Source: Subsaximicrobium wynnwilliamsii (GTDB lineage Bacteria > Bacteroidota > Bacteroidia > Flavobacteriales > Flavobacteriaceae). From it: 64,000 nt of DNA. The DNA is taken from assembly GCF_007997225.1 (NCBI RefSeq), contig NZ_VORM01000004.1, forward strand, positions 186,001-250,000. Direction: 5' to 3'. Below the pieces are notes generated by a model that made no database searches, had not been told where the DNA came from, and worked only from the letters and a program-made list of their open reading frames with translations. The stretch's first letter is position 1, and each line of letters begins with the position of its first letter. A program made the translations under genes and the position numbers. Below are positions 9,216 through 53,797 of the stretch, piece by piece.

Positions 9216-9569
9216 TTAAGTTTTCAAACAATTCCGTATATTATATATATGTCCGATAACAATAGATGCTGAAAAAAAGAACATTAAATATTCAAAAATT
9301 TCAGCACGTTCTTCAAGTAATAAGGATGTCACAAAACCAGCAAAAGCAACCCACAGAAAAATACTTATTCCTTTAAATATTTTACCTTTAGTAGCGTTGT
9401 AGATTGAAATAAAGGCTACGAAAATAAACAGGTATGCGATTACGGGATTTTCCAAAAACCCAATACCCATCGTTAGAAATGCAGGTACTGATAGGCAATG
9501 TACTATACAAAGAAACGCACTTATGGCACCTAATTTATCTGCCCAATATATCTTTTTTGTTTGTGTCAT
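9216..9569 (-). CDS. MerC domain-containing membrane protein
   Basis: 117 residues with four hydrophobic segments. The first segment carries the MerC motif (DKLGAISAFLCIVHCLSVPAFL) with two cysteines (about residues 21 and 25) that in MerC take up Hg(II). Most chromosomal MerC-domain proteins of Bacteroidetes are not tied to mercury and often sit in zinc-limitation gene sets. The start overlaps the stop of the upstream ABC permease by 4 bp, so it is the last gene of the operon folE-zigA-ABC-permease-permease-merC. A metal role is inferred. Confidence 0.8.
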   Translation of the reverse strand: MTQTKKIYWADKLGAISAFLCIVHCLSVPAFLTMGIGFLENPVIAYLFIFVAFISIYNATKGKIFKGISIFLWVAFAGFVTSLLLEERAEIFEYLMFFFSASIVIGHIYNIRNCLKT

Positions 9570-10882
9570 TTACTGAATGTTTTATTGTATTCTAAGTATT
9601 TTTCTTTATCTACAGTAACATCATTCCAAATATCAAAAACCATAATTTTGGTTCGTTCATCGACGCTTTTTTGAATGGCATTTCTATAGGATTCATAGTC
9701 TTCGTAATGGGTGTTCGTTAGTTTGTTCAACTTATTTTGAAAAAAGGTGATTGGATTTATCCAATACGTAGTTTCAACAAGTTTGTTTTTAGCATTGTTG
9801 TCTTCTTCAATACTTTTGGTTGCATTTTTCATTTCGATAGTAACCAAAGCATTAGTTGAATAGCCTCCCCTTTTTCTAACAATGGTGGTGTCTTTAAAGG
9901 TTTTGGTTTCTTTTAATTTAGGATATAATTCAAACATTTGCCTATTAATCAATGCTTTAGATTGCTCATTTATTTCGCTGGTTTTATCTCGTTTAACATC
10001 AATTAGGTCGACCATTAGATTGGTTGGCTTTTCGATAGCTATCCATTGCTGAATGGTAGCTGGAATAATAAATGCAAAAAGCAACCACACGCCAATCATT
10101 AACAAGGTGTTTGATACTGTGCTTTTACTATACTTCAGAATTAAAAAATAAATAATGACCCAAAACAAGAGATAGATGGTTACGTAAATTAGGATGCTCC
10201 AGAAGCTATCGGCATTGGCTTTAAAAACATTGGTAAGTGTTGCGCCATAAACCATTACACCAACTAAAACGAGTAGAAGTAGTAGGGTGTAGAATGCAGT
10301 TCGTGAAACTATCCACCAGTTTTTGGAACCTGTTTGCACAAAAATGAGTGGCAAAAATCCTTGCTCTTCTTCTTTCCCTTTAATGTTGTACAGCAACACC
10401 AATAGCAAAAGTGGCAAGAGAAATAGGATTGAAAAAGAAAAATCTAACGTACCAGATTGGATACGCTCTGGATTGGAAATTTCCTGTGTCATATCTGCAT
10501 CATACGGGTTGCTCCACGTATTTATCCTTTTATAAAATCCGTATTGTTCCGTTTGCCCAATCGCATAGACTATAGTAGGTGATGGTGTTTTAAACGCATA
10601 GGTTGGTGCATTATAAATTGCCCAAAATGGTTGCGTATTGTCCACCCAAGGTCTTTCATCTGGGCCTTTTTTGCCATTCTCAAAGTAGGATAGGGTTGTT
10701 TTTATTTCAGTTTCTGTTTCTTGAGTGAGCCGCTCAAATTCATTGTTTTGTTTTTCATATAAATCGGCACCATTGTGCAAACCGTACATACTTGCCACGA
10801 TGAACAATATGAGTGCTACGATTTTGAAAGGACTTCGTGTAAAATGTTTCCACTCGTATATAAATATCTGAAGACTTCTCAT
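9566..10882 (-). CDS. ABC-2 type transporter permease (DUF3526-like)
   Basis: 438 residues. One N-terminal membrane helix (FKIVALILFIVASMYGL), a long extracytoplasmic region of about 130 residues, a cluster of membrane helices (FSFSILFLLPLLLLVLLYNI onward), a second soluble loop and no obvious ATP-binding motif. This topology is that of DUF3526/NosY-like ABC-2 permeases. It overlaps the upstream permease gene by 4 bp (ATGA) and the merC gene by 4 bp, so it is produced together with the other permease and the ATPase at 12300. Substrate unknown. Confidence 0.8.
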   Translation of the reverse strand: MRSLQIFIYEWKHFTRSPFKIVALILFIVASMYGLHNGADLYEKQNNEFERLTQETETEIKTTLSYFENGKKGPDERPWVDNTQPFWAIYNAPTYAFKTPSPTIVYAIGQTEQYGFYKRINTWSNPYDADMTQEISNPERIQSGTLDFSFSILFLLPLLLLVLLYNIKGKEEEQGFLPLIFVQTGSKNWWIVSRTAFYTLLLLLVLVGVMVYGATLTNVFKANADSFWSILIYVTIYLLFWVIIYFLILKYSKSTVSNTLLMIGVWLLFAFIIPATIQQWIAIEKPTNLMVDLIDVKRDKTSEINEQSKALINRQMFELYPKLKETKTFKDTTIVRKRGGYSTNALVTIEMKNATKSIEEDNNAKNKLVETTYWINPITFFQNKLNKLTNTHYEDYESYRNAIQKSVDERTKIMVFDIWNDVTVDKEKYLEYNKTFSK

Positions 10883-12288
10883 AAGATTTCAATTTTTTTA
10901 GTTCCAAAAAGAATAAGTGCAAAAACTAATACTGACCAAAACGCCAGCAATGCCAAGTCGAGCATATAGTTTGAAAACACAACCGAAAGTTGGGTTGGTT
11001 TATAATCAAAATCTGGCACCGACCTAAAAAACGCATTATCGGCATTCTTTCCCCAATTACCTGTTTTTGAACCTCCAAAGGCGTGCTCGTCATTCAGCAT
11101 TTTTATAAAAACCCTTCGGTAATTTTCAACTTGTAGCAAAAATTCCTGATGGTGTACATTGTCACTTGCCATAAAGCCCATACTTGTGTTTTGAAGTGAT
11201 ATAAACGGGTTTACGATGCCACCCAATTGAAAGCTCTGTTTCTGTTCTTGCAATACATTTCGGTTGTTCCCAAAATGCTTGTCCCAAACTTTATTACCAT
11301 AATCCTCATCTGCCTGCATCAATAACCCATCAAAATTGATTGGTAATTGAGAGAGGCTATCTACTTTGTATTCTTTTAGCACTTTTTCTTCAAGTGCTTT
11401 AGTACGTTCATCAGTAGGGTTATGACCGTCCAAACCTTTTGAGCGGTCTTCGTCCATAGCGGTCTGAAATTCGTTTCGGCTGGGTAATTGATGCCACTTT
11501 TCAACAGAACTCATTAAAACATTGGGTAGAAAAATCGTCCAAAGTATCCAAATCCCCAACATTGATGTCAAGGCGAGTGTTGCATTTTGCCATCTTGCAG
11601 AAAAGAAAACGGTGAGCCCGCTGATGATAAAATAATAGAGCGCGTATGATAAAAAGAACAATCCTGTTCTGAATAAAATTTCCGAAGTGAGACTTTGAAG
11701 GTTTAGAATACCATAAACCACAATCACAAAAAGCAATAATAACAGACCATACAGCCAAACGGAAAATGTTTTGGATAAAATAAGCTGTATTGGTTTTGCA
11801 CCTTGTAAGATGAGCAGTTTAAGCCTGCCACTTTGCTTTTCGCTGCTTACAGAATTAAAGGCCAAAAAAATCAACAATAATGGAACGATATACTGTAATA
11901 AAAGTGAGGATTTGAGTTTGCCAAATCTTGAAACTACTTGCATTTGTGAGGCTTCAGAATGAACGATTTCATTCTGTACGTGACCTTCAACCCGAAGCAC
12001 ATTTCCTGTTACGCTGTTAACCCCTTCGTCGAGACTGCTCAATAAATTGGCGGGTTTAAAGACATATGTACCATAATGCGCTGCGCTATGCGGATTCATT
12101 TCGTCAATGCTTACCCATTGTTGGCGCACGTGTTCTTTAGCGTTAGTTTGCGTCTGGTCTTGCTTTTGTGTTTGATAATTCCCTAAAAAAACGGACACTA
12201 TCAAAATAGCAATAAACCCAATGCTAATACCTAAAAATATGCGACTACGTAGTAAAAATCGCCATTCGTTTTTAATAATCTGAAACAT
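10879..12288 (-). CDS. ABC-2 type transporter permease
   Basis: 469 residues, same plan as the next gene: an N-terminal helix (IFLGISIGFIAILIVSVFLG), a large extracytoplasmic domain, then helices from LLLQYIVPLLLIFLAFNSV, the segment SSEKQSGRLKLLILQGAKPIQLILSK typical of ABC-2 permeases, a second soluble domain and a last helix near the C-terminus. Together with the 9566 gene it should form the heterodimeric membrane part of an ABC exporter served by the ATPase at 12300, 11 bp upstream. Confidence 0.82.
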   Translation of the reverse strand: MFQIIKNEWRFLLRSRIFLGISIGFIAILIVSVFLGNYQTQKQDQTQTNAKEHVRQQWVSIDEMNPHSAAHYGTYVFKPANLLSSLDEGVNSVTGNVLRVEGHVQNEIVHSEASQMQVVSRFGKLKSSLLLQYIVPLLLIFLAFNSVSSEKQSGRLKLLILQGAKPIQLILSKTFSVWLYGLLLLLFVIVVYGILNLQSLTSEILFRTGLFFLSYALYYFIISGLTVFFSARWQNATLALTSMLGIWILWTIFLPNVLMSSVEKWHQLPSRNEFQTAMDEDRSKGLDGHNPTDERTKALEEKVLKEYKVDSLSQLPINFDGLLMQADEDYGNKVWDKHFGNNRNVLQEQKQSFQLGGIVNPFISLQNTSMGFMASDNVHHQEFLLQVENYRRVFIKMLNDEHAFGGSKTGNWGKNADNAFFRSVPDFDYKPTQLSVVFSNYMLDLALLAFWSVLVFALILFGTKKIEIL

Positions 12289-12299
12289 AATATTCGTTT

Positions 12300-13001
12300 T
12301 TAATTTTGCATAAATTTTAGGTACAAAGTCTCCAGCTCGTTGGCACTCACGTCTTGGCTATTCAGCTCTTTTACCAGAATGCCGTTCTTAAGAATGCCAA
12401 TACGGTTACAAACCTCTCGTACACGAAAAATATCGTGGGAAGCCATTAAAATGGTTGCACCTTCAGCAGCCAATTTTTTAAGTAACACAGAAAGTTCGTT
12501 GCTCGCTAATGGGTCTAAACCGCTTGCAGGTTCATCTAATAAATAGACTTGTGCTTTCTTGGCATACGCAATGGCAATGCCCACTTTTTGTCGCATTCCT
12601 TTAGAATAGCCGCTCACTTTTTTAGCGTGTGCTTTGGTTTCCAGACCACAAGTAGATAGAAATTCTTCTAATTCACTTTTGGTATATTTTAATCCTGCCA
12701 ACTTGCAGAAATAATCCAGATTTTCCAGTCCCGATAAATAGGGATAGAGATTTACATTTTCAGGAATATAGCCAATGAGTTTTCGGGTTTCTTGCGCATT
12801 TTTTACGGTATCAATTTCATTGATTTGTACGCTTCCAGAATCGGGATTTATAAATCCTAACAGGGTATTGATTGTTGTGGATTTCCCTGCGCCATTAGCA
12901 CCTAAAAGCCCAAAGATTTCTCCTTTGCCTACTTTTAGATTTAAATTTTCAAGTGCGGTAGCATCGCCGTACTTTTTTGTGAGTTCATTTATTTGTATCA
13001 T
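12300..13001 (-). CDS. ABC transporter ATP-binding protein
   Basis: 233 residues with all motifs: Walker A GANGAGKST (34-42), ABC signature SGYSKGMRQK (130-139), Walker B VYLLDEP (152-158) followed by ASGLDP, and the switch His in MASHD. Closest in style to CcmA/NosF ATPases, which pair with ABC-2 permeases. It is preceded by zigA (11-bp gap) and followed by two permease genes, so a complete exporter is encoded. It probably energises movement of a compound linked to metal stress, but the substrate cannot be read from the sequence. Confidence 0.92.
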   Translation of the reverse strand: MIQINELTKKYGDATALENLNLKVGKGEIFGLLGANGAGKSTTINTLLGFINPDSGSVQINEIDTVKNAQETRKLIGYIPENVNLYPYLSGLENLDYFCKLAGLKYTKSELEEFLSTCGLETKAHAKKVSGYSKGMRQKVGIAIAYAKKAQVYLLDEPASGLDPLASNELSVLLKKLAAEGATILMASHDIFRVREVCNRIGILKNGILVKELNSQDVSANELETLYLKFMQN

Positions 13002-13012
13002 CTTTATCTGTT

Positions 13013-14233
13013 TTAGCTTTTTGTATATTCAAGAGTTTCTATTGGCCAATGGTCTGTTACTTGTAATTCCCCGTTTTTCCAAAGTTTTTGCTCGTCCGAT
13101 GTTAAGAGGCATTTCTCCAATAAATTGGTAAGCTTGTCTCTGTCTAAATTTTGGGCAATGAATACGAGTTCGACCTTTCGGTCGCCATAAGTTTGGTGCC
13201 AATCACTTTCTATAAAAGATTGATTATCTACAAATGCGGCATAACCAATACGTTCTGAAAATGGCATTGATGCCCACCATACACCAGCTGGGTCGGTCTT
13301 TAACGAACCTCCTGCCGAACTCCAAATTAAAGCTTGTTCAGGACGTGAGGACAACCAAAATAATCCTTTACTGCGTAAGATGTTTGCAGGAAATCCTGAT
13401 GTGGCAAATTCCCAAAAGCGTTCTGTATGGAAGGGTGTTTTACTTCGGAATACCATTGAGCCTATTCCGTATTCTTCCGTTTCTGGGGTGTGTTCGTTTT
13501 CCAATTCCTGTATCCAACCTGCCGAATTTTCGGCTTCTTCAAAATCAAATAACTTAGTGCCAATGATTTCAGATAAGGGTACAGCAGAATTTTTAGCTGG
13601 AATAATCCTCGCATTTGGATTTAGTTTTTGAAGGATGCCATACAACTGCTTTAACTTTTCTTCGGTAATCAGGTCTATTTTATTTAGGATAATGACATTG
13701 GCAAACTCTACTTGGTCTGTGAGCAGATTAACGATAGTTCGTGTGTCATTCTCTATATCTGTTAAGTTACGGGATGTGAGGTAGTCTGGGCTGGAAAAAT
13801 CTTTTAGGAAGTTGAACCCATCGACCACAGTAACCATTGTATCCACATAGCTGAAACGGCTGAGGTCAATACTGCCATCCTCGCTTTCAAAACTAAAAGT
13901 CTGCGCCACGGGAATGGGTTCTGAAATTCCTGTGCTCTCAATGAGTAGATAGTCAAAACGATTTTCCTTGGCGAGCTTTTCAACCTCTATCATAAGGTCT
14001 TCACGTAGGGTACAGCAGATGCAGCCGTTGGACATTTCCACCAGTCTTTCTTCGGTCCTTGAAAGGGTGTTTTCATTTTTTACGAGCTGGGCATCTATGT
14101 TTACCTCACTCATATCGTTTACGATTACGGCAACTTTTAAGCCCTCTTTATTATGCAAAATGTGGTTGAGCAATGTTGTTTTTCCTGCTCCTAAAAAACC
14201 GCTTAGCACGGTTACTGGTAATTTCTTTGTCAT
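13013..14233 (-). CDS. zigA: ZigA-type COG0523 GTPase, putative zinc metallochaperone
   Basis: 406 residues. P-loop [10 protein letters not shown] (11-20), the metal-binding GCICCTL motif (Cys71, Cys73, Cys74), the guanine-specificity motif LNKID and a CobW C-terminal domain ([16 protein letters not shown]...[20 protein letters not shown]). The latter is typical of the ZigA branch, which supplies zinc to client enzymes when zinc is scarce. The client is often encoded next door; here folE lies 4 bp upstream and is a zinc enzyme. Conservation of all GTPase and Cys motifs indicates an active protein. A decayed partner copy lies at about 15020-15149. Confidence 0.88.
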
Positions 14234-14237
14234 CTGT

Positions 14238-14894
14238 TTATTTTTTGTTTAAGGTTAGAAAAAATTCGTTTCGGTTTTCTATATCCTCAAAACAGCCTCC
14301 AAACTCAATAGTAGTTGTAGAACTGTCCTTGTCTTTTATTCCTCTTGATGAAACGCATAAGTGTTTTGCATTCAGAACAACAATTACATTTTTTGTATTT
14401 AATGTTTCTTGCAAATCATTTAGAATTTGCAAACACAATCTTTCTTGTACTTGTGGGCGATGTGAATAATAATCTACCAATCGATTTATTTTCGATAGAC
14501 CAATAACTTTTTCATTGGGAACGTACCCAATATGTGCGTGTCCTGTGATAGGTAAAAAATGATGTTCGCAAGACGAATCAATAGTAATATCTTGTTCTAC
14601 AAGCATTTTTTTATAACCATACTTATTTGGGAATGTTGATAGTTTAGGCTTGTTGATTGGATTTAATCCATAGAACAATTCTTTTACGTACATTTTTGCA
14701 AAACGATAGGGTGTTCCTGACAGACTTTCGTCTTTTAAGTCGAGCCCTAGTTCTTGCATTATTTTTGAAAAGTAGCGTTGAATATTTTCAATCTTTTCTT
14801 CATCTGATTTTTCAAAAGCATTTGAAAGTAGAGGGGTTTCAATATTTGTTAGTATATGATTATCTCCAATTTCTTCAATTAACTCTTTTTTCAT
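14238..14894 (-). CDS. folE: GTP cyclohydrolase I, zinc-dependent type
   Basis: 218 residues, the usual size. It converts GTP to dihydroneopterin triphosphate, the first step of folate synthesis. Zinc ligands are visible: Cys109 and His112 in SSCEHHF and Cys180 in KHLCVSSRG. Other family motifs are [22 protein letters not shown] and [23 protein letters not shown]. It is the first gene of a six-gene minus-strand operon and sits 4 bp before zigA. Extra folE copies beside COG0523 genes are a known feature of zinc-limitation loci. It is probably a second copy besides a chromosomal folE, which I cannot check. Confidence 0.93.
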
Positions 14895-14999: not shown

Positions 15000-15149
15000 C
15001 GAACGTGGTATCTATGTTTAATAGCGTATACCCCTTACGGATACGACAACTTTAAAGCCTTCTTTAAGGCTTTAAATTGGTTTATCAGGGTTGTTTACCC
15101 TGTACCTAAAAACCCGCTTACGGACAATTTCTTTTGCTGTTCTTGTCAT
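15000..15149 (-). pseudogene. Relic of a second COG0523 (zigA-like) gene, 5' end
   Basis: ATG at 15149 overlaps the TGA of the YiiX-like gene. The following minus-strand DNA is recognisably the start of a COG0523 gene: after one frameshift it reads SGFLGTG*TTLINQ, matching [14 protein letters not shown] of the intact zigA, with a stop where the catalytic Lys should be. A stretch resembling KALKLSYP* follows before similarity fades near 15000. Only the first ~45 codons can be traced. It implies that a yiiX-zigA pair once existed here, ahead of the present folE-zigA pair. Confidence 0.6.
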
Positions 15150-15811
15150 TTATAGTTTTCTATTTTTAAAATTGAAATTTTGTTTGAACGAGAAATTAAT
15201 CCTGGATTTATACCTAATAGTCCTTCGGGTATTTCTTTATTTAGGTGCTTGTAATAATTAACCCAAGCTGGGAAAAATACTTTTGTTTTAGGGTCTTTAA
15301 AAGTCATTGGCTCTAATACAAAAAAGTCTTTGGTTTTATTGGACTCTTTAAATATTTCATAAATCATTTCACTACAATACATTTTCCCATTATTCAATAA
15401 AAAAATATTGTCATATGGTTGTCCTATAATTTTTTTAGCTTCTGCTATTGCCTTAGGTATTAAGTTCTTGTATTGTTTTTTTAATCTCCCAACTGTTACA
15501 TTTTCAATTTTGGCAGTATCTCCACTTCTTGAAAAGAAAGTTTCTAGAGAATTTATCTGCACATTATTTCCTATAGCTTCAATTACTTTTAAAGTGTCAT
15601 TTACATTTACCACTAATGCAATATGAGAAAAATCTTTGCCATCAATACCTTCTGTTACCGCTTCAATAGCATTACATAATTCCCCACAATTCAGATTTTG
15701 AAAAAGCAAATCGCCTTCTTGAAATCCTACTTTTTGGTAAGAATGATTACAACTTATTGACAAAGTGCAGCAATAGAAAAACAATAATTTATTCAAAAGC
15801 CTAATTTTCAT
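15146..15811 (-). CDS. YiiX/YebB-like NlpC/P60-fold cysteine hydrolase, lipoprotein
   Basis: 221 residues with a lipoprotein-like signal (LLFFYCCTLSISCNHS, Cys21 the likely lipid site). The body follows the permuted papain-like family: GDLLFQNLNCGELCNAIEAVTEG, DFSHIALVV (conserved His), VIEAIGNNVQINSLETFFSRSG and the catalytic Cys motif GQPYDNIFLLNNGKMYCSEMIYEIF. Known relatives cleave amide or ester bonds in peptides or lipids; the substrate here is unknown. Its stop overlaps the start of a decayed zigA-like gene (ATGA), so it was once part of an operon with a metallochaperone gene. Confidence 0.83.
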   Translation of the reverse strand: MKIRLLNKLLFFYCCTLSISCNHSYQKVGFQEGDLLFQNLNCGELCNAIEAVTEGIDGKDFSHIALVVNVNDTLKVIEAIGNNVQINSLETFFSRSGDTAKIENVTVGRLKKQYKNLIPKAIAEAKKIIGQPYDNIFLLNNGKMYCSEMIYEIFKESNKTKDFFVLEPMTFKDPKTKVFFPAWVNYYKHLNKEIPEGLLGINPGLISRSNKISILKIENYK

Positions 15812-15894: not shown

Positions 15895-16664
15895 TTATCC
15901 AACAGCATATTCTGCTAAATATTGATTTGGAATTCCTTCAAAAGTTTCTTTCTCATCTACTTTAAACCATTTTGAAGCCGCTGTATTTTCATCATTATAG
16001 GCTGGTGTAAATATGTCAACTAACTGCGTAAACTTGTTGGGCATTAAAGAATGGATATTACCTTCTGAAGCCATAAGTATGCTAGTTTTATTTGGTAGTA
16101 AAATTTCGTTTGTACTTCTTTAATTACACAAGATTTATATAACAATTCATTTTCGCCATTTGCAACGGTTCTTTCTGTATCAAGATGTTTTTCAAGGGAA
16201 TAATTTTTTACCAATGCATTACCTGTTACCATATTGATAATTCCACACATTTCTGGATGGTCGTGATGGGGAATGTATTCCCCTTTTTCAAATTGCAAGA
16301 GCGAGACTTGAAAATCAATTTCTTGGTGCAATAATTCGTGTTCAAACCAATCAGGCTTATTGTTCTTGTATTCTTTAAATGCCTTTTCTACTTTTTGAAA
16401 CTCAGGGAATTTGCATTTATCCATAAGCGCCTTCACTTGGGTCAAATACGCTGACTGGTTCCAAGATTTTAGGTGCTGTGTTTTGGCTAATGTTTGTATT
16501 TTAGAAATAAAGGCATCCCAATTCATTTCAGGATTGCTTCCTAAAAAACCATTTTGTCCATTCGCATTTAGTGCATACGCAGAAACGTTTGAAAACTGTA
16601 AAGCAATACCAGCAAAAGCCATTGTCGAAAGTTTGATAAATTCTCTTCTTTTAAAGTCGTCCAT
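15895..16664 (-). pseudogene. Tat-exported thiol-dioxygenase-like cupin protein, frameshifted
   Basis: From ATG 16664 the intact frame gives 206 residues (ending QKVISIL*). The natural end (GNIHSLMPNKFTQLVDIFTPAYND...LAEYAVG*) lies in another frame, ending at 15895. One base added near 16113-16118 joins them into about 256 residues. The N-terminus has a twin-arginine signal (KRREFIKLSTMAFAGIALQ). GEYIPHHDHPEMCGIINMVTGNALVKNYSL and NIHSLMPNKFTQLVDIFTPAY resemble the cysteamine/plant cysteine dioxygenase family (PCO/ADO), where the three histidines bind iron. The third His lies after the shift, so the short product would lack an iron ligand. Export by Tat would be unusual for this family. Confidence 0.68.
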
Positions 16665-18028: not shown

Positions 18029-20428
18029 TTAATAATTGATTTTAAGGTTTAATAAAAAGTTTCTGCCCAAATCATCCGCATAATAGCGCAGACGGTTTAG
18101 GTAATTTCGGTAGGAAGTATCAAATAAATTAGCGACACTAAAACCTACCGTTAGTTTTGATTTCTTGTTTATGTTAAAGTCTATGCTCGAATTAAAGTTG
18201 AGCAAATGGTACGCATCAGGCGGTGTGCTTACATCAACAGTTTCCATTGTTTCTGTCTGTGGAATAAACACTTCAAAATTGTTATCGGGAAATTCGTTCT
18301 GGCGAAATACGTATTCACTCTGCAATGCCAACCGTAGGTTTTTTAAATCTGGATTTTGATATACAACCTCATTCTTTGTATTTATAGCTGGTATGCTTAT
18401 CAGAGGTTCATCCCTTGTACGGTCATAGCCCTTTATAAATGAAAACTGGTGATTGAAACGGAACGCTTTCGCGAAAGCGTAAGAAGCATCCACATCTACT
18501 CCTAATAGTTGTGCATTGGTTTGCCTGTATTCCCAAACTTGAAAATTACCTCTTACCGTTTGCTGGATTTCGGTAGGTTCGATAATGATAAAATCGTTAA
18601 TGGTATTTATGTATGGATTAATTGAAAAGCCAAACACATCATTATCTCGTTGAAAAGTCAATGCTATTTTATGTCCTATTTCTGAATTGAACCTCAAATC
18701 GCCCAGCTCGATACGAGAAGCGGAATGGTGTAGACCTTCGCTAAAAAGTTCGGAAGGGTTTGGTGCTCGTGACGCCAATGAATAATTGAAAAACAATTTA
18801 TATTCATCATCAAAATCGTAGGTTGCTCCCAAAGTTGCCGAGGCGTTATAAAAATTGAGCTGTGGATTCGTCAAAATTTGATTAGCCAGTTCCTCAACGA
18901 CAATTTCGGGAAAGAGTTCATCATAATTGCGGGACTCCCAAAAAGAGGTGCGATAGAACTTAAAAGCGTCCATATAGGTGTAATCAAAACGTCCACCCGC
19001 TTCTAAAAGCAAATTATCGTTCCATCGGTAATCGGCTATGGCATAGATGCCCAAATCATATTTATCATAATCGGGTATTAATCTACGCACTCCGGTATTT
19101 GGGTCTGCAAAGTTGTTTTGGTATCGTGCCATTAAACCCGTCTTTAGGTTTATTTCGTCTGTTAAATCAGAATCCAAATCAAGCAATAGGGTGTGGGTGT
19201 CCAGCTCTAAATCTAACGAAGCTTTATCCCTGTCGTCTCCACGTCTAATATCGAATTCCAAACGGTTGTTTCGTTGAAAATCATATTGTAGGCTCAATTT
19301 TCCGAAGCTGTCAAACCTTTTGAAACCTTTTATTCGGGCGAGATGATGCGTGACATCTTGTTTGGGCGCGTCGATGTCGTAAGTAAAATCATTAATAATT
19401 AGAGGTCTATCGCTATTTATTGCTCGAATTTGGTCTTGTGCACCTCCCAGGTGGGATGCTCTTAAAATGCCAATTTCATTTTTAAAAAATGAATAATACC
19501 CCTCAATGCCATAATCAAAATGATTAAACCCAAATAGCAAAGAAGCATTGCGCTCAAAAATGCCTGTATTGCTCAATACATAATCGGGTGCTTCAAAATC
19601 GCCAAAACGTTTCAATGTTCCCTGTACCGTTCCATACCAACCGCTTTGATAGCTTTTGGTCAATTGGGAAGTGATTGACGAGCCACGCCCATTTGATGCT
19701 GCCGTAAATAAGGTCTTACCGTAGAGGCTATCTTTAACGGGAACTTTTGAAGCTTCAGCAATAATGACTCCTCCTAATGCATCTCCGCTGTATTGCAATG
19801 CACCTGCTCCTTTTATCAAAGTCAGGTTGCCAACCGAATTGATATCCACATTTGGGGCGTGTTCTGCTCCCCATTCTTGGTCTTCCATCCGAACGCCATT
19901 ATTTATGATAACTACACGACTGCTGTGCAGTCCATTAATTAAAGGTTTGATAACGGTATTCCCAGTATTGAGGGAAGAAACGCCGCTCAAACTGTTTAGC
20001 GCATCGCCGAGCGTCCCGCTACTAAAACGTTCTAATTCTTCCTTTGAAATTGTGTTTTCAAGAATTGTTTTAGACTTGTTGCTGAAGGCTTTCCCTTCAA
20101 CGGTAACTTGGTTCAATTCTTCCAAATGGTGTTCCAACTTAAAGTTCTTGGTCGTGTTGCCAGCTATTTTAACGGTAAAACCTTTGGCCAAGCAATAGGG
20201 ATGCGATACCTGTATGGAATAGGTGTCGTTGCAAAGATTTGAAATGGTAAATTTTCCGTTGATGTCTGTCTGTACAGCTTTTTCAGAACCCGCAACAATA
20301 AGTATTGCTCCTACAAGTAAAGACCCATCGTGAAGGTCTGTTACCGTTCCAGAAAGTGTATTGTCACAATTTTGTGATATAGATGATATACTGCATAATA
20401 GCAGTATCAAAAATGCATATGTGCGCAT
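18029..20428 (-). CDS. TonB-dependent receptor, probable metal uptake
   Basis: 799 residues: signal peptide (MRTYAFLILLLCSISSISQ), a carboxypeptidase-regulatory-like domain (LSGTVTDLHDGSLLVGAILIV...), a plug domain (LEELNQVTVEGKAFSNKSK; GTLGDALNSLSGVSSL; LIKGAGALQYSGDALGGVIIAE), then a 22-strand-type barrel ending in a strand with terminal aromatic (NFLLNLKINY). It imports a ligand across the outer membrane using ExbB/TonB energy. Its lipoprotein partner follows by 18 bp and a His/Cys-rich protein gene lies just upstream. With the zigA/folE operon nearby, zinc is the most likely ligand, but the sequence alone does not prove it. Confidence 0.85.
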   Translation of the reverse strand: MRTYAFLILLLCSISSISQNCDNTLSGTVTDLHDGSLLVGAILIVAGSEKAVQTDINGKFTISNLCNDTYSIQVSHPYCLAKGFTVKIAGNTTKNFKLEHHLEELNQVTVEGKAFSNKSKTILENTISKEELERFSSGTLGDALNSLSGVSSLNTGNTVIKPLINGLHSSRVVIINNGVRMEDQEWGAEHAPNVDINSVGNLTLIKGAGALQYSGDALGGVIIAEASKVPVKDSLYGKTLFTAASNGRGSSITSQLTKSYQSGWYGTVQGTLKRFGDFEAPDYVLSNTGIFERNASLLFGFNHFDYGIEGYYSFFKNEIGILRASHLGGAQDQIRAINSDRPLIINDFTYDIDAPKQDVTHHLARIKGFKRFDSFGKLSLQYDFQRNNRLEFDIRRGDDRDKASLDLELDTHTLLLDLDSDLTDEINLKTGLMARYQNNFADPNTGVRRLIPDYDKYDLGIYAIADYRWNDNLLLEAGGRFDYTYMDAFKFYRTSFWESRNYDELFPEIVVEELANQILTNPQLNFYNASATLGATYDFDDEYKLFFNYSLASRAPNPSELFSEGLHHSASRIELGDLRFNSEIGHKIALTFQRDNDVFGFSINPYINTINDFIIIEPTEIQQTVRGNFQVWEYRQTNAQLLGVDVDASYAFAKAFRFNHQFSFIKGYDRTRDEPLISIPAINTKNEVVYQNPDLKNLRLALQSEYVFRQNEFPDNNFEVFIPQTETMETVDVSTPPDAYHLLNFNSSIDFNINKKSKLTVGFSVANLFDTSYRNYLNRLRYYADDLGRNFLLNLKINY
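18463..18480. repeat. 18-bp perfect palindrome inside the receptor gene
   Basis: ACGCTTTCGCGAAAGCGT is a perfect palindrome that codes for FAKAF-type residues in the TonB receptor. A shorter version (TTTCGCGAAAGCG, 24206-24218) occurs in the BfmA/BtgA gene. It resembles a highly iterated palindrome rather than a gene-specific operator. Confidence 0.6.
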
Positions 20429-21505: not shown

Positions 21506-23086
21506 TTACTTAAAAATCGACCTCGCCTCATCATAAACCCGCTCAAAATTAGCAGCTAAATCATCTGGCGAAAATTGGTTGGATTCTTTTGGAAGCTCTC
21601 TTTGAATTTTTGATAATTTAAACTGCACCTTTTTATCTTTACCATCTGCATACGTAATAAACTCGCCTTGCTTCAAACGGAAAAACACATCCGCTCTAAT
21701 TTTTGGAATCTCTTTCTCTCCAGTCGTAATTCGAGTATCAAAATCAAGATTGTGGCCACGACTTATACTTTTTGTTGGGTCTTTGATAATTTCAAAAAAA
21801 CGTTCGTAATATTTGGCGGTATCTGGGTCGTTAACTTTTCCGAAGAATTGATAGGATAGGTTACTTAAAATGGCTTTACTTGCCTTGTCGCCATACATCA
21901 TATCGTTCTGAATTTTGTCTTGCATCACGTAGATTGTAGATATATTATAACTCCTTAATGTTGCAGGAATACGATGCATATTCAATAAACGGATGGTTGG
22001 CGCTTCTTCCATTAATAAAAATGAAGGTTCGCTATTCCGAACGCTCATTTGCTTTGTAATTGTATGGATGATTGTGGCTATAACCGGCGAATACGAAGTT
22101 TCAAATTTTGGATTATTTACAATCGAAATCACACAAGGATTTTCTGGACTATTTATATTTAGTGGCACTTCGTCTGCGGACAATGCCATAAAAATACGCT
22201 GTGTGCTAATTCGTTTGAGCGCATTTGCCAAGGTGCTTTTAACACCTGCGGTCTGTCTATCAGAATCTTTTCCGCTAATAAAAGCATCTGCCATCGCTCG
22301 TGATGTTTTATTAGTTTCTAAAAATTGAATTAGACTATCCGTGTCCAGATATTGATAAATGGCAATCAAATGCGGAAGGGTACAGAATTGTGGATAGGTC
22401 GTTTTCAATTTCCAAATCAAGCCACCAATCAAACCTTCAGCTGCATCGTTGAAAAATTTTGTTGTGCCGGTTGTTCCGCTTTCTCTTTGCTCTAAAAGGT
22501 TTTCAATTAACACTCGTGAAACCTCGTTTACGCTTTCCTCGTTCTCTAAATAGCGTGGTGCAATAGGATTTACCCTATGAATGATTTTATCGAAGGATAT
22601 GACCTTAAACGGAATATTGCTATCCTTAAAAAGTGGATATGCCATTTCGGTTAATTCAAAATCTTTGTAATCGTGAATGATTCCGCAGAAGTTTTCTTTT
22701 TGGAAGTGTTTCAGAAAACCATAAACCACACTTTCAGTCTTACCACTTCCCGCAGAACCGATGATGGATGCACCACGCTTGATATTATCTAATTTGAAAT
22801 TTCCTTTGGTTGTTGCAAAATTGACTTGATATTTACTTTCGCCATTTTGTGCTTGTTCGGTTTTATGCAGAAAAACATACAATCCTGTATTAATTAATAG
22901 TAGAGGGCAAACTAAATAGAGCAATAATTTTATTAATTCATTTCCTTCGGAAACATAGAATACAAGAATTGAAAGCAATAAAATATTCAGAAGAAAAGCA
23001 TATCTGCTTACCCGAAACATTGCATAGAAAACAGTACTGGCCAGACCAATAATTGAAAGTATCGTTATAAGATTGTCTATTTGCAT
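21506..23086 (-). CDS. TraG/VirD4-family coupling protein (MobC)
   Basis: 526 residues with two or three N-terminal membrane helices, a Walker A motif GSAGSGKT (110-117), Walker B at SFLLMEEAPTIRLL and a C-terminal tail DLAANFERVYDEARSIF. VirD4/TraG ATPases bring the relaxase-DNA complex to a type IV secretion channel. No channel genes are in the window, so the element is mobilizable rather than self-transmissible as far as can be seen. The relaxase gene ends 5 bp upstream, so they are one operon with the BfmA/BtgA gene. Confidence 0.88.
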   Translation of the reverse strand: MQIDNLITILSIIGLASTVFYAMFRVSRYAFLLNILLLSILVFYVSEGNELIKLLLYLVCPLLLINTGLYVFLHKTEQAQNGESKYQVNFATTKGNFKLDNIKRGASIIGSAGSGKTESVVYGFLKHFQKENFCGIIHDYKDFELTEMAYPLFKDSNIPFKVISFDKIIHRVNPIAPRYLENEESVNEVSRVLIENLLEQRESGTTGTTKFFNDAAEGLIGGLIWKLKTTYPQFCTLPHLIAIYQYLDTDSLIQFLETNKTSRAMADAFISGKDSDRQTAGVKSTLANALKRISTQRIFMALSADEVPLNINSPENPCVISIVNNPKFETSYSPVIATIIHTITKQMSVRNSEPSFLLMEEAPTIRLLNMHRIPATLRSYNISTIYVMQDKIQNDMMYGDKASKAILSNLSYQFFGKVNDPDTAKYYERFFEIIKDPTKSISRGHNLDFDTRITTGEKEIPKIRADVFFRLKQGEFITYADGKDKKVQFKLSKIQRELPKESNQFSPDDLAANFERVYDEARSIFK

Positions 23087-23091
23087 ACTAT

Positions 23092-24123
23092 TTAGATTCC
23101 GATGGAACTTGATTTTATGGCAATTTCAGCACCACGTCTTAATCTCTTGAAAACTCGAAGTGCAATTTGCGCCTGACTTACTGGAATACTTGGGATGACT
23201 GGTAATCCCGTTTTTGTAATCATTTTGAATGCCAATGCTTTTTCGTTGGCTGGTAATTTCATCAAGGCAGCAAAGTAGAGATTGGGATTTTTCACAAAAT
23301 CTTTTCGTGCTTTATAGGTCTCGGCAAAGTTGCGTTTGTAGCCAAAAGTTTTATCAAAAGTCTTTTCTGCTTTGTCAAAAAATTTATCTCGGTCAAAACC
23401 ACGTTTTACTTTTTTGCCGTGCATCTCAACTTCCGAAGCTTTGTGTTTACTTCCTGGGGAAAGACTGACGGAATTTGAAGCATCTTTTCTACTCACGATA
23501 ATATGAATGTGACTTTGGTTTCCGTCTTTTGCCATTCCTTGAACTATCCGTTTTCCATTTTGTTGATGTGGTGCTTGGCGTTCCAATTTGGCAATTTCTT
23601 TTTCCATCTTTTTAATATTCCCTTCAGCTCGCCCTTCTTGAATATTTCGGATATCGGTTTTGAGTTGCAATATTTTTGTAGCGATAGGTTGGTTTTCTTT
23701 TATTTGAAAATCTGTTCCTTTAAAGGTTCTCTGATGTTCAATTTTTGCATAATATTTAATGTCATCAATTGTTATGGGTCGTCCATTAATTTCCCGATTG
23801 AAGGATGCCACATAATCTTTCATTAGCTCACGAGTATAGGTTTTCAAATCATCACGACTGTTCTGTAATCGTTTTAATTCATACTTGGATGGACTGACCG
23901 TAATGGAATAAAATTTGGGTTCTTTCTTTTTCAGTTTTGCGGTGTTTCCATCGATTTCTTTGACCACTTTTTCAGCAGAAGTTTCATCGCCATATTGATT
24001 GAAAAAATGTTCCATATCTCGTTGTTCTAAGCCTTCATTTTCTTTCTCTAAATAGCCTACAAAATCCGCTGAACTTTGGCTATAATTACCGCCTAATTTT
24101 TGAGCTGTGATTGTGATATACAT
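23092..24123 (-). CDS. Relaxase, MobB/DUF5712-like
   Basis: 343 residues. The nicking-site histidines are in HIHIIVSRKD (205-214). MYITITAQKLGGNYSQSSADFVGYLEKEN and FYSITVSPSKYEL in the N-terminal part are typical of the Bacteroidetes MobB/DUF5712 relaxases. These nick oriT and stay bound to the 5' end during transfer. Basic residues dominate the middle. It lies between the BfmA/BtgA accessory gene (38-bp gap) and the coupling protein gene (5-bp gap). The catalytic tyrosine cannot be fixed by eye; Tyr3 and Tyr24 are candidates. Confidence 0.85.
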   Translation of the reverse strand: MYITITAQKLGGNYSQSSADFVGYLEKENEGLEQRDMEHFFNQYGDETSAEKVVKEIDGNTAKLKKKEPKFYSITVSPSKYELKRLQNSRDDLKTYTRELMKDYVASFNREINGRPITIDDIKYYAKIEHQRTFKGTDFQIKENQPIATKILQLKTDIRNIQEGRAEGNIKKMEKEIAKLERQAPHQQNGKRIVQGMAKDGNQSHIHIIVSRKDASNSVSLSPGSKHKASEVEMHGKKVKRGFDRDKFFDKAEKTFDKTFGYKRNFAETYKARKDFVKNPNLYFAALMKLPANEKALAFKMITKTGLPVIPSIPVSQAQIALRVFKRLRRGAEIAIKSSSIGI

Positions 24124-49168: not shown

Positions 49169-50077
49169 TTAGTAATTCCACATATCCTGTTCAAAGTCTC
49201 TAATCTTGTCTTTGATTCGGTCAGATTCCAACAGTTGCATTAAAGCGTTATCTGCCACATAATCCTTGACTTCTCTATCACCATATACATTTTCTTCTTT
49301 GTACATGAAACCGCTAAAACGTCTAGAGTTCAACAAATGGTCAAAGGTAATTGGCGCTGAACTATTTTGATTGTTAAACGCATCTGCATCATTCAAGGCT
49401 TGACGCGCTTCTGGATAGAATACCCAAAATAAGGCATTCGGCACTTTCTGAGCTTCGTTTTCTGATTCCAAAAAGTTAACATCTGGTGCTGCTGGCGCTA
49501 TCCCCAAAATACGATACTTCAACTCACCCAAACGCTTATCAAAATACCAAAGCCCTTTGATTAAGTAGGCACTGATATGAAAAGCTTCAATATTGGTGGT
49601 TGTAATATACTCTGGAGACACAAAACCATCGGCATTCAATTGATCATAACCAATATCCAAAGTATCCACTTTTGTTGTGATGTCTTGAAGTTCCTTTTCG
49701 GTTCTCTTGCTTGAAAAGTAAGAATCGTTATAAATATTCTTGATTTTTCCAGATTTAACAGCACTGATCAAGGTGTGATACAATGAACGTCTGTTTTTAC
49801 CAATATTGTTGGTATCCACAGGGAAATAAAGCGGAAAATTGACACGTTCATCCAAAACCACCTTTTCCCAGGTCATTTTAGAAAACAGAATGTCTCTATC
49901 ATCAACATACCCATATTCCAGCGGCTTGTCATGATCCAAAGCTAACTGAGCCTCGGTTTTAACGCCAACCTCCTTAGGTGTCTTGGCATTTAAAATATTT
50001 GCCTGGGCAAACATTCCAGATGTCAAACCCACTGAGGCAACGATTGATAATAAAAATTTATAAGTCATCTTTTTCAA
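49169..50077 (-). CDS. gldN: Gliding motility / type IX secretion protein GldN
   Basis: 302 residues with a signal peptide (MKKMTYKFLLSIVASVGLTSGMFAQ). The family region is clear: DDRDILFSKMTWEKVVLDERVNFPLYFPVD, RRSLYHTLISAVKSGKI, YLIKGLWYFDKRLGELKYRILGIAPAAPDV, NALFWVFYPEARQAL. GldN (PorN) joins GldK in the periplasmic ring of the type IX secretion system, needed for gliding and for secretion of CTD-bearing proteins. Last gene of the gldKLMN operon and closed by a terminator. Confidence 0.95.
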   Translation of the reverse strand: MKKMTYKFLLSIVASVGLTSGMFAQANILNAKTPKEVGVKTEAQLALDHDKPLEYGYVDDRDILFSKMTWEKVVLDERVNFPLYFPVDTNNIGKNRRSLYHTLISAVKSGKIKNIYNDSYFSSKRTEKELQDITTKVDTLDIGYDQLNADGFVSPEYITTTNIEAFHISAYLIKGLWYFDKRLGELKYRILGIAPAAPDVNFLESENEAQKVPNALFWVFYPEARQALNDADAFNNQNSSAPITFDHLLNSRRFSGFMYKEENVYGDREVKDYVADNALMQLLESDRIKDKIRDFEQDMWNY

Positions 50078-50110
50078 TTTTTAAATTTGGGTTAACTAAT
50101 AAAACACCTA

Positions 50111-51676
50111 TTAGTTAGTCAATTCAATTACCAAGGGGTTTGCAGGTTTAATTGCAGGACCATTTGTTCTTGATTTAATTTCAAATATTTGCACTTGTGA
50201 GCCACGAGGTGCACTGCTCAAAGCAGCTTTTGCAGCTCCGTTCAAACGATCTCCTGAAACTGTGATGGACGGTTTTCCTTCCACCTTGATTTTAAAGCCT
50301 GTTACTGTTAAAGGCAAATCGAAGTCGAAATCTTCCAATACCGCTTCAATTCTACCAATCTCAACATTCTTTCTTGGTAATTTAGCTGTCCCTATTTGAC
50401 CAGCAATCTGTCCAGAAGGCTTTGGTATATCCTTGATTCTAAACACCGCCTTGTCATTTACTTTAGAACCATCGTCTAAGGTTGCACTTACATTAATTGC
50501 AACTTCTCTTCCAGAGGTTGGCTTCATAGTGTATTTACCCATGCCTGATGCCTTAGTTAGACCAGCACCATTTGCAGTAACTTTGTTATCTGGAACACCT
50601 GCAAACGAAATGGTCATTGGGTTATCTACACCACGGTAGACCACATTCATCTTATCTGCAGAAATGGTTGCAGAGTTTGGTCTAGGCACTACCACATAGT
50701 TTCCTTTGATTGGGATTTCCAATGCCTTGCCATCTTCCAAAAACGTAAAGGTTCCATCAATTTTTTGCTCACCAACACCGCCTACATTAAAATCTAAGCG
50801 TGCAGCTCCTGTGGAGTCAATTGCTTCTTCCAAATCAACAGACTGTCCACCAATACTTAAACCTGTTGGAGTAACATTAGCGTATTTACCTAAAACCACT
50901 TTCCCTTGAAATTTCTCACCTGCAAAAAACGCAGACTTATCAGCAATTACAATGGCAGTATAGTTTTTAAGAGAGACCGCTTCATCCAATGTGTTGCCTA
51001 GGAATACGTTAAACATATTCGCTTCCGTCACCTTGACATCATTTTGCAATGCGGTTAGTTTGGTGTAAGAGGCAATCGCTGGGAATCCCTTAAAGTTGTA
51101 ATCCAACCATTCAATCTTTTTACCGTCTGTATTGGTTTTTGGCGTAGTGTTAAAGCGCTTTTCAAAGTTTTCGATAGCCCTCGTATATTTAACGTCGTCT
51201 CCAATGATTTTCTTGACTTCAGCTTTATAAGCGGCAATCTTTTCCATGAACTCCTGACCTTCTTTGGTCAATCTATCTCCAGTAAACCAAGCTTCATCCA
51301 AGATATCGGTTTTATCCATTTCTTCAAAAGGCAGCTTGCCGGTTTTGGGATCTACTTTATAATCACCTGTTTTAGTTATATTGCTCTTTAAGCTTTCCAA
51401 GTAGTTAAAAAACTCATCTGAAACCGTGCTGATTTGCTTCGCCTTTTCTGCGGCTGTTGCAAATTCTGCTGGTTTCTCTTCAGCTTTTGTTTCTAAGTTA
51501 GCCAATAACTTAGTGTTCATTTCTGTCATTGTCTCATTGGACTCTTCAAATTTAGCCTCCATTAGACCAAAGGCTGACAATACTTCTTTTGACATGTTCA
51601 TGGCTATCATCGCAATGAAGACCAGGTACATCAAGTTAATCATTTTCTGCCTTGCAGATAATTTTCCTCCTGCCAT
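50111..51676 (-). CDS. gldM: Gliding motility / type IX secretion protein GldM
   Basis: 521 residues. N-terminus MAGGKLSARQKMINLMYLVFIAMIAMNMSKEVLSAF is the single membrane helix that enters the GldL ring; the rest is a long periplasmic part of helical and immunoglobulin-like domains. With GldL it forms the proton-driven motor of the type IX system. Length is close to the family's usual 510-525. It lies 33 bp before gldN and 52 bp after gldL. Confidence 0.96.
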   Translation of the reverse strand: MAGGKLSARQKMINLMYLVFIAMIAMNMSKEVLSAFGLMEAKFEESNETMTEMNTKLLANLETKAEEKPAEFATAAEKAKQISTVSDEFFNYLESLKSNITKTGDYKVDPKTGKLPFEEMDKTDILDEAWFTGDRLTKEGQEFMEKIAAYKAEVKKIIGDDVKYTRAIENFEKRFNTTPKTNTDGKKIEWLDYNFKGFPAIASYTKLTALQNDVKVTEANMFNVFLGNTLDEAVSLKNYTAIVIADKSAFFAGEKFQGKVVLGKYANVTPTGLSIGGQSVDLEEAIDSTGAARLDFNVGGVGEQKIDGTFTFLEDGKALEIPIKGNYVVVPRPNSATISADKMNVVYRGVDNPMTISFAGVPDNKVTANGAGLTKASGMGKYTMKPTSGREVAINVSATLDDGSKVNDKAVFRIKDIPKPSGQIAGQIGTAKLPRKNVEIGRIEAVLEDFDFDLPLTVTGFKIKVEGKPSITVSGDRLNGAAKAALSSAPRGSQVQIFEIKSRTNGPAIKPANPLVIELTN

Positions 51677-51728
51677 CTTAATTAGTTTTTAGTGTTATTC
51701 ATTAATATTACTAGTTCAAAAAAACCAA

Positions 51729-52367
51729 TTAGTTTTTGTTCATTGCAGAGAGCATTCCACCGTAAACTCCATTAAGAGAAGATAGGTTAGATGCTAAAGA
51801 CTTCATTTGTTCTTTCAATTTGGTTGCGCTCTCAACCGACTCCTCATTGATGGTCGCTTGACGATTTGCACTTTCCATTTGCACTCTATAAAGACTGTTC
51901 AAGGATTCCATTTGAGCAGCAGCCAAAGACATTTCTTCGCTGTACTTTTTCTGTGCTGTCATTGCATCAACAGTTGGGCTAATTCCCTTAGCTGCACCTT
52001 CAAAATTTTTGATGCTAGTGCCTAGACTTGCCATTAACTCACCATCTATTTTGGCTTCTTTTAATAGACTATCCAATTTTTTGGATAACAAGCCTTCAGC
52101 ATCTTTAGGATCTTCACCTTTGATTTGCTTTTTGCCAAAATTTGCACCACCTGCCAATTCTGGATAAACCAAAGACCAATCCAAATCTGATTGTTGTCTT
52201 TCAAAAGCAGAAATTGTAAATACGATCGCTTCAACAACCATACCTATGGTAAGAATCAAAGAACCATAAGGCCAGTGTTGAATTTTAAATAATGCTCCAA
52301 GAATTACAATTGCCGCTCCTAGGCCATAGACCATATTCATTTGTGAGAGTTTACCTTTTTGTGCCAT
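51729..52367 (-). CDS. gldL: Gliding motility / type IX secretion motor protein GldL
   Basis: 212 residues. Two membrane helices (MVYGLGAAIVILGALFKIQHWPYGSLILTIGMVVEAIVFTISAF), including the conserved KIQHWPYG segment, then a cytoplasmic helical tail rich in Ala, Lys and Glu. GldL pentamers around two GldM helices convert proton flow to rotation. It sits 59 bp after gldK. Confidence 0.96.
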   Translation of the reverse strand: MAQKGKLSQMNMVYGLGAAIVILGALFKIQHWPYGSLILTIGMVVEAIVFTISAFERQQSDLDWSLVYPELAGGANFGKKQIKGEDPKDAEGLLSKKLDSLLKEAKIDGELMASLGTSIKNFEGAAKGISPTVDAMTAQKKYSEEMSLAAAQMESLNSLYRVQMESANRQATINEESVESATKLKEQMKSLASNLSSLNGVYGGMLSAMNKN

Positions 52368-52426
52368 AATTTTTTTTTGATTTAAGTTGAGTAATCGATT
52401 AATTTAGTTGTGTTAATTAGTTTGAA

Positions 52427-53797
52427 TTAATTGGTTGCGGCATTTTTGGTGACCTCGGTCCCTAAATAGTCCTGTACGGTTCTAAAGCCAATGTAACTTC
52501 TTGCGGAATCGGCATACTCATAATCCCGTGAGCTTACCTGCAAGAAATAAGCAACATCCTTCCAAGATCCGCCACGAACAACCTTACGTTCATTATCAGG
52601 ATCATTCACAGTTGGATTGAAGGTCGCCATGTATTCATAAGACGCAGCATCATAAGACCCTTGCACCCACTCAGAAACGTTACCAGCCATGTTGTATAAG
52701 TTGAAATCGTTAGGCTCATAAGAATCGGCTTCTACAGTGTAAAGTGCTGCATCGGCGGCGTAATCTCCTCTTAAAGGTTTGAAATTGGCCATAAAACAAC
52801 CACGGTCGTTCTTAATGTATGGGCCACCCCATGGAAAAGTCGCGCCTTGAAGACCACCTCTTGCAGCATATTCCCATTCTGCTTCTGAAGGTAATCTATA
52901 GGTATTCACATTATGCTTGCCTCTTTTCTTTCTATCGGCATTGTGATAAAGTGTTCTCCACTGGCAAAACGCATTGGCTTGTTTCCAAGACACACCAACT
53001 ACTGGATAGTTACTGTAGGCATCATGCCAAAAATAATCGTTGTGCATTGGCTCATTGTAAGAATAAGAAAAATCTCTAATCCAAGCAGTTGTATCTGGAT
53101 ACACTTTGACTTCTTCAGTTACCAAAACATCACTGCGTTTCAAGCTTCTGTCTTTTACGGCTTTCTTGATATCCATATACGTGTACTGGAACTTAAACTT
53201 GTCCACATCCCAAGTACGTTGACCGTTGTAAGACTCTTCAATAGGCAAATACATGGTGTCCATGACTTCAGCGTAATACTCATCAGGATAATCTGCAGTG
53301 TCAAAAACAAGCTGTATATCGCGATTCAATTTTCTGCTTTCGTAACCTGTTGGTCCCAAACCAGCGTAATTATCGTACATATACTGCTCGTAAACTGTCA
53401 TATTTGCTGGATCTGCATCCATAAATGCAAATTCACCAATACCACCGTTTCCTGGAGTTTCGCCAATATCATCGGCAAGAATGGCCAGCTTCAATCGTAA
53501 GGTCGAGTCACGTACCCATTCTACGAATTGGCGGTACTCTGAATTTGTAATTTCCGTTTCGTCCATATAAAAGGCTCTCACGGTGACCGTTTTTGTTGGA
53601 GCATCTTGAACTCCCGGTAAATCGTCATCTGACTTCCCCATAATAAAAGCGCCACCAGGTACAAGTGTCATACCGTAAGGCTTTTCAGGATGCCATTTCT
53701 TTCCTTTAACTCCAACAAGTTGACCTCTGTCACCAGAGTTGCAACCAACTAAGAGAGCTAAAACAGCTGTTAATAAAGCAAACTTTTTAAAATTCAT
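52427..53797 (-). CDS. gldK: Gliding motility lipoprotein GldK
   Basis: 456 residues with a lipobox (LTAVLALLVGCNSGDRG). The body is a formylglycine-generating-enzyme/sulfatase-modifying fold: MTLVPGGAFIMGKSDDD, MDETEITNSEYRQFVEWV, NTYRLPSEAEWEYAARGGLQGATFPWGG, YNMAGNVSEWVQGSYD, VVRGGSWKDVAYFLQVSSRDY. In GldK (PorK) this fold is structural, forming with GldN the ring under the outer membrane. First gene of gldKLMN, 184 bp after the arginase-fold gene, with no strong promoter motif seen. Confidence 0.95.
   Translation of the reverse strand: MNFKKFALLTAVLALLVGCNSGDRGQLVGVKGKKWHPEKPYGMTLVPGGAFIMGKSDDDLPGVQDAPTKTVTVRAFYMDETEITNSEYRQFVEWVRDSTLRLKLAILADDIGETPGNGGIGEFAFMDADPANMTVYEQYMYDNYAGLGPTGYESRKLNRDIQLVFDTADYPDEYYAEVMDTMYLPIEESYNGQRTWDVDKFKFQYTYMDIKKAVKDRSLKRSDVLVTEEVKVYPDTTAWIRDFSYSYNEPMHNDYFWHDAYSNYPVVGVSWKQANAFCQWRTLYHNADRKKRGKHNVNTYRLPSEAEWEYAARGGLQGATFPWGGPYIKNDRGCFMANFKPLRGDYAADAALYTVEADSYEPNDFNLYNMAGNVSEWVQGSYDAASYEYMATFNPTVNDPDNERKVVRGGSWKDVAYFLQVSSRDYEYADSARSYIGFRTVQDYLGTEVTKNAATN

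Follow-up and report, generated by a model that had tools for sequence, protein, structure and literature searches.

The window analysed here, a 64,000-nucleotide stretch of the genome of Subsaximicrobium wynnwilliamsii, carries a gene whose product, as far as sequence can tell, probably is, or was until recently, a thiol dioxygenase of the PCO_ADO family with mononuclear non-heme iron and export through Tat. A role in zinc shortage appears likely in those lineages where the gene has zinc genes in its neighbourhood, and the window copy itself is most likely a recent pseudogene. Research on PCO_ADO enzymes treats them as oxygen sensors in plants and animals. If bacteria have a branch that shares their catalytic residues and has a conserved export signal, this chemistry would be seen to serve a different purpose; the branch would also supply bacterial enzyme models and might tie thiol oxidation to zinc supply.

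The broken gene

One PCO_ADO gene runs on the minus strand from 16664 to 15895 and is split by a one-base frame change within 16110-16121. Its parts are as follows.

16044..16664, minus strand: piece 1, ATG start, 206 aa; Tat-like signal and first half of the PCO_ADO cupin
16572..16664, minus strand: predicted Tat signal peptide (by eye), with KRREFIK, a hydrophobic stretch and an A-Y-A cleavage-like end
16257..16265, minus strand: H-D-H, predicted iron ligands 1 and 2, aligned to HNH of PCO4
16110..16121, minus strand: frame-change stretch, shift of one base
15898..16110, minus strand: piece 2, remaining cupin in the other frame, 71 aa, with EGNIHSLMP and DIFTPAY
16051..16053, minus strand: His of EGNIH, predicted iron ligand 3, aligned to the His of GNIH in PCO4
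16015..16017, minus strand: Asp of DIFTPAY, aligned to the Asp of DILAPPY in PCO4; by its spacing the probable equivalent of ADO D206
15895..15897, minus strand: stop codon of piece 2

Piece 1 has the N-terminus MDDFKRREFIKLS, contains HHDHPEM, and its final ~22 residues are out of frame relative to the family. PF07847 (PCO_ADO; curated Pfam cut-off 27 bits) is the sole Pfam match of the window pieces, and they match it in the correct order and in different frames: 16047-16664 at profile positions 26-86 (E 2.3e-7, 30.9 bits) and 15898-16116 at positions 111-164 (E 6e-4, 19.7 bits, alone below the cut-off). The sequence-only reading had placed here a gene broken by one base, with the frameshift removing the third iron-binding His, and both the coordinates and the description agree with our results; the 206-aa product lacks this His as well as the Asp, which are located beyond the frame change in another frame. 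A PF07847 search of the window genome (4.9 Mb) found a single place, the broken gene, and the homolog profile gave two separate matches, 16104-16664 (E 1.4e-75) and 15904-16116 (E 5.9e-20).

Intact homologs and membership of PCO_ADO

Ten intact homologs were collected, seven from a contig scan (among them L011, from Aequorivita antarctica) and three from genome searches (G022, from the genus of the window; G483, from a different family of the same class; and G621, from a different family of the same order), and their pairwise identity is 63-84% in all pairs, compared with 51-57% between each of them and piece 1 of the window copy. The counts leave out G869 and G847, taken as the same records as L008 and L009. 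Weak or partial matches were kept outside the ten (L003/L024, L004, L013, L014, L015, L019, L020, L030-L032 and L034); among these, L019 looks by eye like a different Tat protein, and CDO_I matches L015 better.

The intact homologs L007, G022 and G483 score 61.8, 62.1 and 66.6 bits, above the PF07847 cut-off, and the family matches all seven homologs in alignment A1 (E up to 1; best E 3.8e-17). DUF3471 is found at the C-terminus in six of these seven (E up to 1; best 5.1e-7), and this tail is absent from L007, G022 and G483 as judged by length. The best solved structure for the seven-homolog profile is Plant cysteine oxidase 4 (PCO4; E 1.4e-5), followed by PCO5 (7e-4), ADO (0.0014) and PCO2 (0.015), in keeping with the resemblance to PCO/ADO noted beforehand. 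Assignment to another cupin family was also considered and rejected: the profile comparison gave PCO_ADO, and the NCBIfam matches (ChrR, WbuC) were all far below cut-off. AlphaFold on seven homologs reached a mean pLDDT of only 42.4 with a shallow input alignment (72-81% identity to the first row), and the fold assignment therefore rests on sequence profiles.

The three predicted iron-binding His residues and the Asp and Tyr expected of a PCO site are conserved in the homologs. Both the HxH motif and the His of GNIH are invariant in the ten intact homologs and aligned with HNH and GNIH of PCO4, while the Asp and Tyr of DVFTPAY, equally invariant (10/10), are aligned with the D and Y of DILAPPY. 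A spacing of 12 residues between the third His and the Asp is common to the homologs and PCO4. Three-His coordination is described as strictly conserved among thiol dioxygenases (PMC8503633), and D206 of ADO as essential, with 99% of activity lost in D206A and 98% in D206N (PMC12098869). The ADO chains align to the seven-homolog profile only as far as query position 150, ahead of the third His, so that we only infer the correspondence between the homolog Asp and D206.

The homologs thus share with PCO4, PCO5 and ADO the Pfam family, and with PCO4 the aligned three His, Asp and Tyr, but they differ in being bacterial, in having a conserved twin-arginine signal, in the ~100 residues that precede the cupin, in the C-terminal DUF3471 of most A1 members, and in having no Cys at the position of the Cys-Tyr pair (ADO C220/Y222, PCO4 C190/Y192), where an ungapped extension of the PCO4 alignment places an invariant Trp. 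According to PMC8503633 the Cys-Tyr residues are strictly conserved in PCOs, a cross-link is unexpected there, and the cofactor is an amplifier of catalysis; we therefore do not use the pair to define the family. The hairpin-loop stretch of ADO and PCO (PMC8503633) seems to have the same length in the homologs on ungapped extension, which is suggestive only.

The small-molecule thiol dioxygenases CDO and MDO would have the three-His iron cupin chemistry in common with the homologs, but the CDO_I profile matches just two of seven (best E 0.0064). PCO_ADO is reported to be functionally and evolutionarily separate from CDO/MDO (PMC10966181) and of low similarity to them (PMC13194613).

Predicted export by the Tat system

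K-R-R and the following F-I are invariant in 10/10 intact homologs; read by eye, they lead into a hydrophobic stretch and then an end that resembles A-x-A or the like, and the window genome encodes TatC (E 1.4e-65). With a twin-arginine motif, a hydrophobic stretch, a cleavage-like site and a Tat system in the genome, the homologs have the features of predicted Tat substrates. The sequence-only reading had proposed such a signal for the broken gene, and none of its ten bacterial relatives lacks it.

We found no description of an exported PCO_ADO protein in the literature searched, most subscription papers being outside the reach of that search. Among the matches listed, 'twin-arginine' was absent from the thiol dioxygenase literature, and the signal-peptide match concerned plant cupin_1 proteins. 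Another protein that begins with a twin-arginine motif (SRRKFF) and contains a PCO_ADO-like cupin (HAHENM, NIHWFNTM) is located at 8428-9183 of L024 (G078), scoring 25.2 bits against PF07847, just under the cut-off of 27. It possibly represents a second exported PCO_ADO-like group.

State of the window copy

Apart from the frame change, the frame of the broken gene stays open, and both pieces resemble the ten homologs to about the same degree (50-58% identity for piece 1 and 48-58% for piece 2); the break is hence recent, or else an error. A sequencing or assembly error, with the gene intact in the organism, would account for this even conservation, for the open remainder of the frame and for the intact state of all ten homologs. 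However, the longest homopolymer around the frame change (16091-16140) is only 4 bases, and the four neighbours with full-length relatives (CobW, the ABC ATPase and two ABC membrane proteins) show no frame break, since they align over nearly their whole length.

The window copy also differs at 19/77 positions that are invariant among the ten others, whereas in a leave-one-out control any other homolog departs at most at 9/86 invariant positions. This excess is as relaxed selection would give and argues against an error, but an old separate lineage would produce it too; the divergence fits either. In a tree of the ten homologs and piece 1 no branch is supported and the window sequence sits on a long end branch. 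Judged by the invariant positions, no other family member is as divergent as the window copy, and we take the tree as showing divergence only. Taken together, a recent pseudogene seems the likelier state of the window copy, and an error the less likely but possible one. Programmed frameshifting was rejected: inspection by eye shows no correctly phased slippery heptamer, and the break is missing from all ten homologs.

Distribution and probable horizontal transfer

The homolog family is rare among the Bacteroidota searched. The genome draws behind these counts overlap, and each includes the window genome itself. PF07847 is found in 4/146 relatives, two of them over the cut-off (1/146 with the own genome excluded), and in 5/395 genomes of the class, again two over the cut-off (own excluded, 1/395). 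The search with the window protein found 5/293 genomes, namely its own, G022, G621 and two weak matches (own excluded, 2/293). Using the homolog profile, 6/397 genomes of the family match (the own, two full-length and three weak) and 2/395 across the phylum (the own and one weak; own excluded, 0/395 full-length or over cut-off). Only G483 itself matches in its family (1/46), and only G621 in its own (1/88). PCO/ADO proteins had been characterised beforehand as known mainly from eukaryotes; within the genomes covered, 0/14 control genomes match the family, in addition to its rarity in the Bacteroidota searched. Viral contigs gave 51 pattern matches and no relatives, and the plasmids searched gave no match to the gene family.

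The G022 protein, from the same genus, is 55% identical to the window copy and 76% to that of L007, a Saprospiraceae MAG. Because the distribution is scattered and G022 is nearer to L007 than to the window copy, the pattern points to a spread of the PCO_ADO homologs by horizontal transfer.

Gene neighbourhood and a possible link to zinc

In the window the broken gene is surrounded by the following genes.

9216..9569, minus strand: MerC-domain membrane protein
9566..13001, minus strand: ABC-2 transporter set, ATPase and two membrane proteins, one with DUF3526 above cut-off
13013..14233, minus strand: CobW/COG0523-type GTPase, 554.7 bits against the zinc metallochaperone ZigA model, just below its cut-off of 600
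14238..14894, minus strand: GTP cyclohydrolase I FolE
15146..15811, minus strand: YiiX-like permuted papain-like amidase (Peptidase_C92)
18029..20428, minus strand: TonB-dependent receptor, upstream of the broken gene; heme, ZnuD and copper receptor models far below cut-offs

On the same strand the order is MerC, two ABC-2 membrane proteins with the ATPase, CobW, FolE, amidase and the broken gene; given the CobW score, the earlier description of a gene among metal-handling genes is upheld. ZigA/COG0523 loci respond to zinc shortage. The window resembles them in having a ZigA-like GTPase, FolE and MerC in one gene run. No PCO_ADO gene in a ZigA/COG0523 locus was found in the literature searched, where the matches were on other subjects (e.g. 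PMC9976891).

Parts of this neighbourhood recur elsewhere. In G483 the order is ATPase, two membrane proteins, PCO_ADO, MerC, one more gene and CobW, with a divergent Fur-family gene. In G022, three genes separate the PCO_ADO gene from CobW, which is located ~6.6 kb upstream; the ABC set, the MerC-like gene and the Fur-family gene of this genome are ~330 kb from the PCO_ADO gene. In three genomes (window, G022 and G483), which belong to two families, CobW lies no more than 7 kb from the PCO_ADO gene. G022 and G483 have CobW proteins with 70% identity to that of the window, the one covered by the ZigA scan. The ABC-2 set and MerC are near the PCO_ADO gene in two of the three (window and G483), with differing gene orders.

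These recurrences argue against the reading that the zinc link is an accident of a mobile cluster and that the enzyme degrades environmental thiols, unrelated to metals. Yet by tblastn none of the zinc-cluster genes of the window is found in the flanks of L005-L011 and L023, which make up eight of the ten homolog loci (the flanks are unequal, with one short side in L005, L006 and L009), and six of the seven homologs of alignment A1 combine the DUF3471 tail with different neighbours. We regard such an accident as a serious contender, falling somewhat short of an even chance.

The ABC ATPase and second membrane protein of the window (10879-13001) are 77 and 71% identical to those of G483, versus 71 and 62% to those of the same-genus G022. 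The greater closeness to a different family suggests that the ABC-containing cluster was transferred between lineages. The cluster is directly adjoined, at 21506-24123, by a coupling protein of the conjugation type (T4SS-DNA_transf, TraG-D_C) and by a DUF5712 protein that may, from its position, be a relaxase.

Proposed function

The protein would fold round Fe(II) in the cytoplasm and then be exported in the folded state by the Tat system. In the periplasm it would add O2 to a thiol, giving a sulfinate; candidate substrates are free aminothiols and peptides with an N-terminal Cys. It would likely take part in the zinc-shortage response, at least in lineages with the zinc-gene neighbourhood. 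A parallel is offered by the cyanobacterial manganese cupin MncA, which we take to lie outside PCO_ADO. MncA is likewise a metal cupin exported folded by Tat, but it is a manganese oxalate decarboxylase; it is reported to trap manganese in the cytoplasm before meeting zinc and copper, as the reason for its Tat export (PMC4192464). By analogy, folded export may protect the metal site of the homologs from zinc and copper.

Three-His cupin sites can hold several metals, and the homologs may instead use theirs for metal binding (e.g. of zinc) or for another oxidation than that of thiols. The nearby CobW-type gene in three loci and the missing Cys of the Cys-Tyr pair (ungapped extension) are consistent with such a role. 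However, invariance in 10/10 extends beyond the His residues to the Asp and Tyr lining the PCO site, which a pure metal binder does not obviously need, and we consider this alternative unlikely.

A more specific version of the thiol dioxygenase reading is that, in some Bacteroidota under zinc shortage, the periplasmic iron-loaded enzyme oxidises zinc-holding thiolates to sulfinates and so frees zinc for uptake. We offer it as speculation that is more probably wrong than right by a wide measure; if true, an exported PCO_ADO would be a zinc-liberating enzyme, and a family of oxygen sensors would be employed outside the N-degron pathway.

Candidate operator and other features of the window

The palindrome GCAACNNNGTTGC has exact matches in 2/34 loci, and is present twice between the G483 set and the Fur gene and once before the CobW of G022. 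The sites (L021 17011-17023; L022 12491-12503 and 12529-12541; G022:C2:363350-363364) are located either at CobW or in the interval that separates ABC from Fur-family genes. For a longer form, TGCAACNNNGTTGCR, one additional site is present at the G022 set far from the PCO_ADO gene and one within an apparent ribosomal protein gene of G483; its backward control has zero sites. We propose GCAACNNNGTTGC as a candidate operator for a Fur-family regulator in Bacteroidota; the regulator scanned falls below every NCBIfam cut-off, Zur included.

A metal-type regulon is hence suggested for G483 and G022. The window genome gives no such indication: the longer form is absent from it, and the window has 17 matches to GCAACNNNGTTGC, all at exactly 2 mismatches and none closer, against 20.4 expected by chance, so that no binding site is claimed there. 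This chance-level count also speaks for an accidental link to zinc.

Elsewhere in the window, an inverted repeat at 15051-15076 with 11-base arms (TTTAAAGCCTT...AAGGCTTTAAA) is located upstream of folE and may be a terminator-like or regulatory element. Gliding genes are present at 49169-53797, with GldN and GldM identified by Pfam, and the adjacent protein with an FGE-sulfatase domain is presumably GldK.
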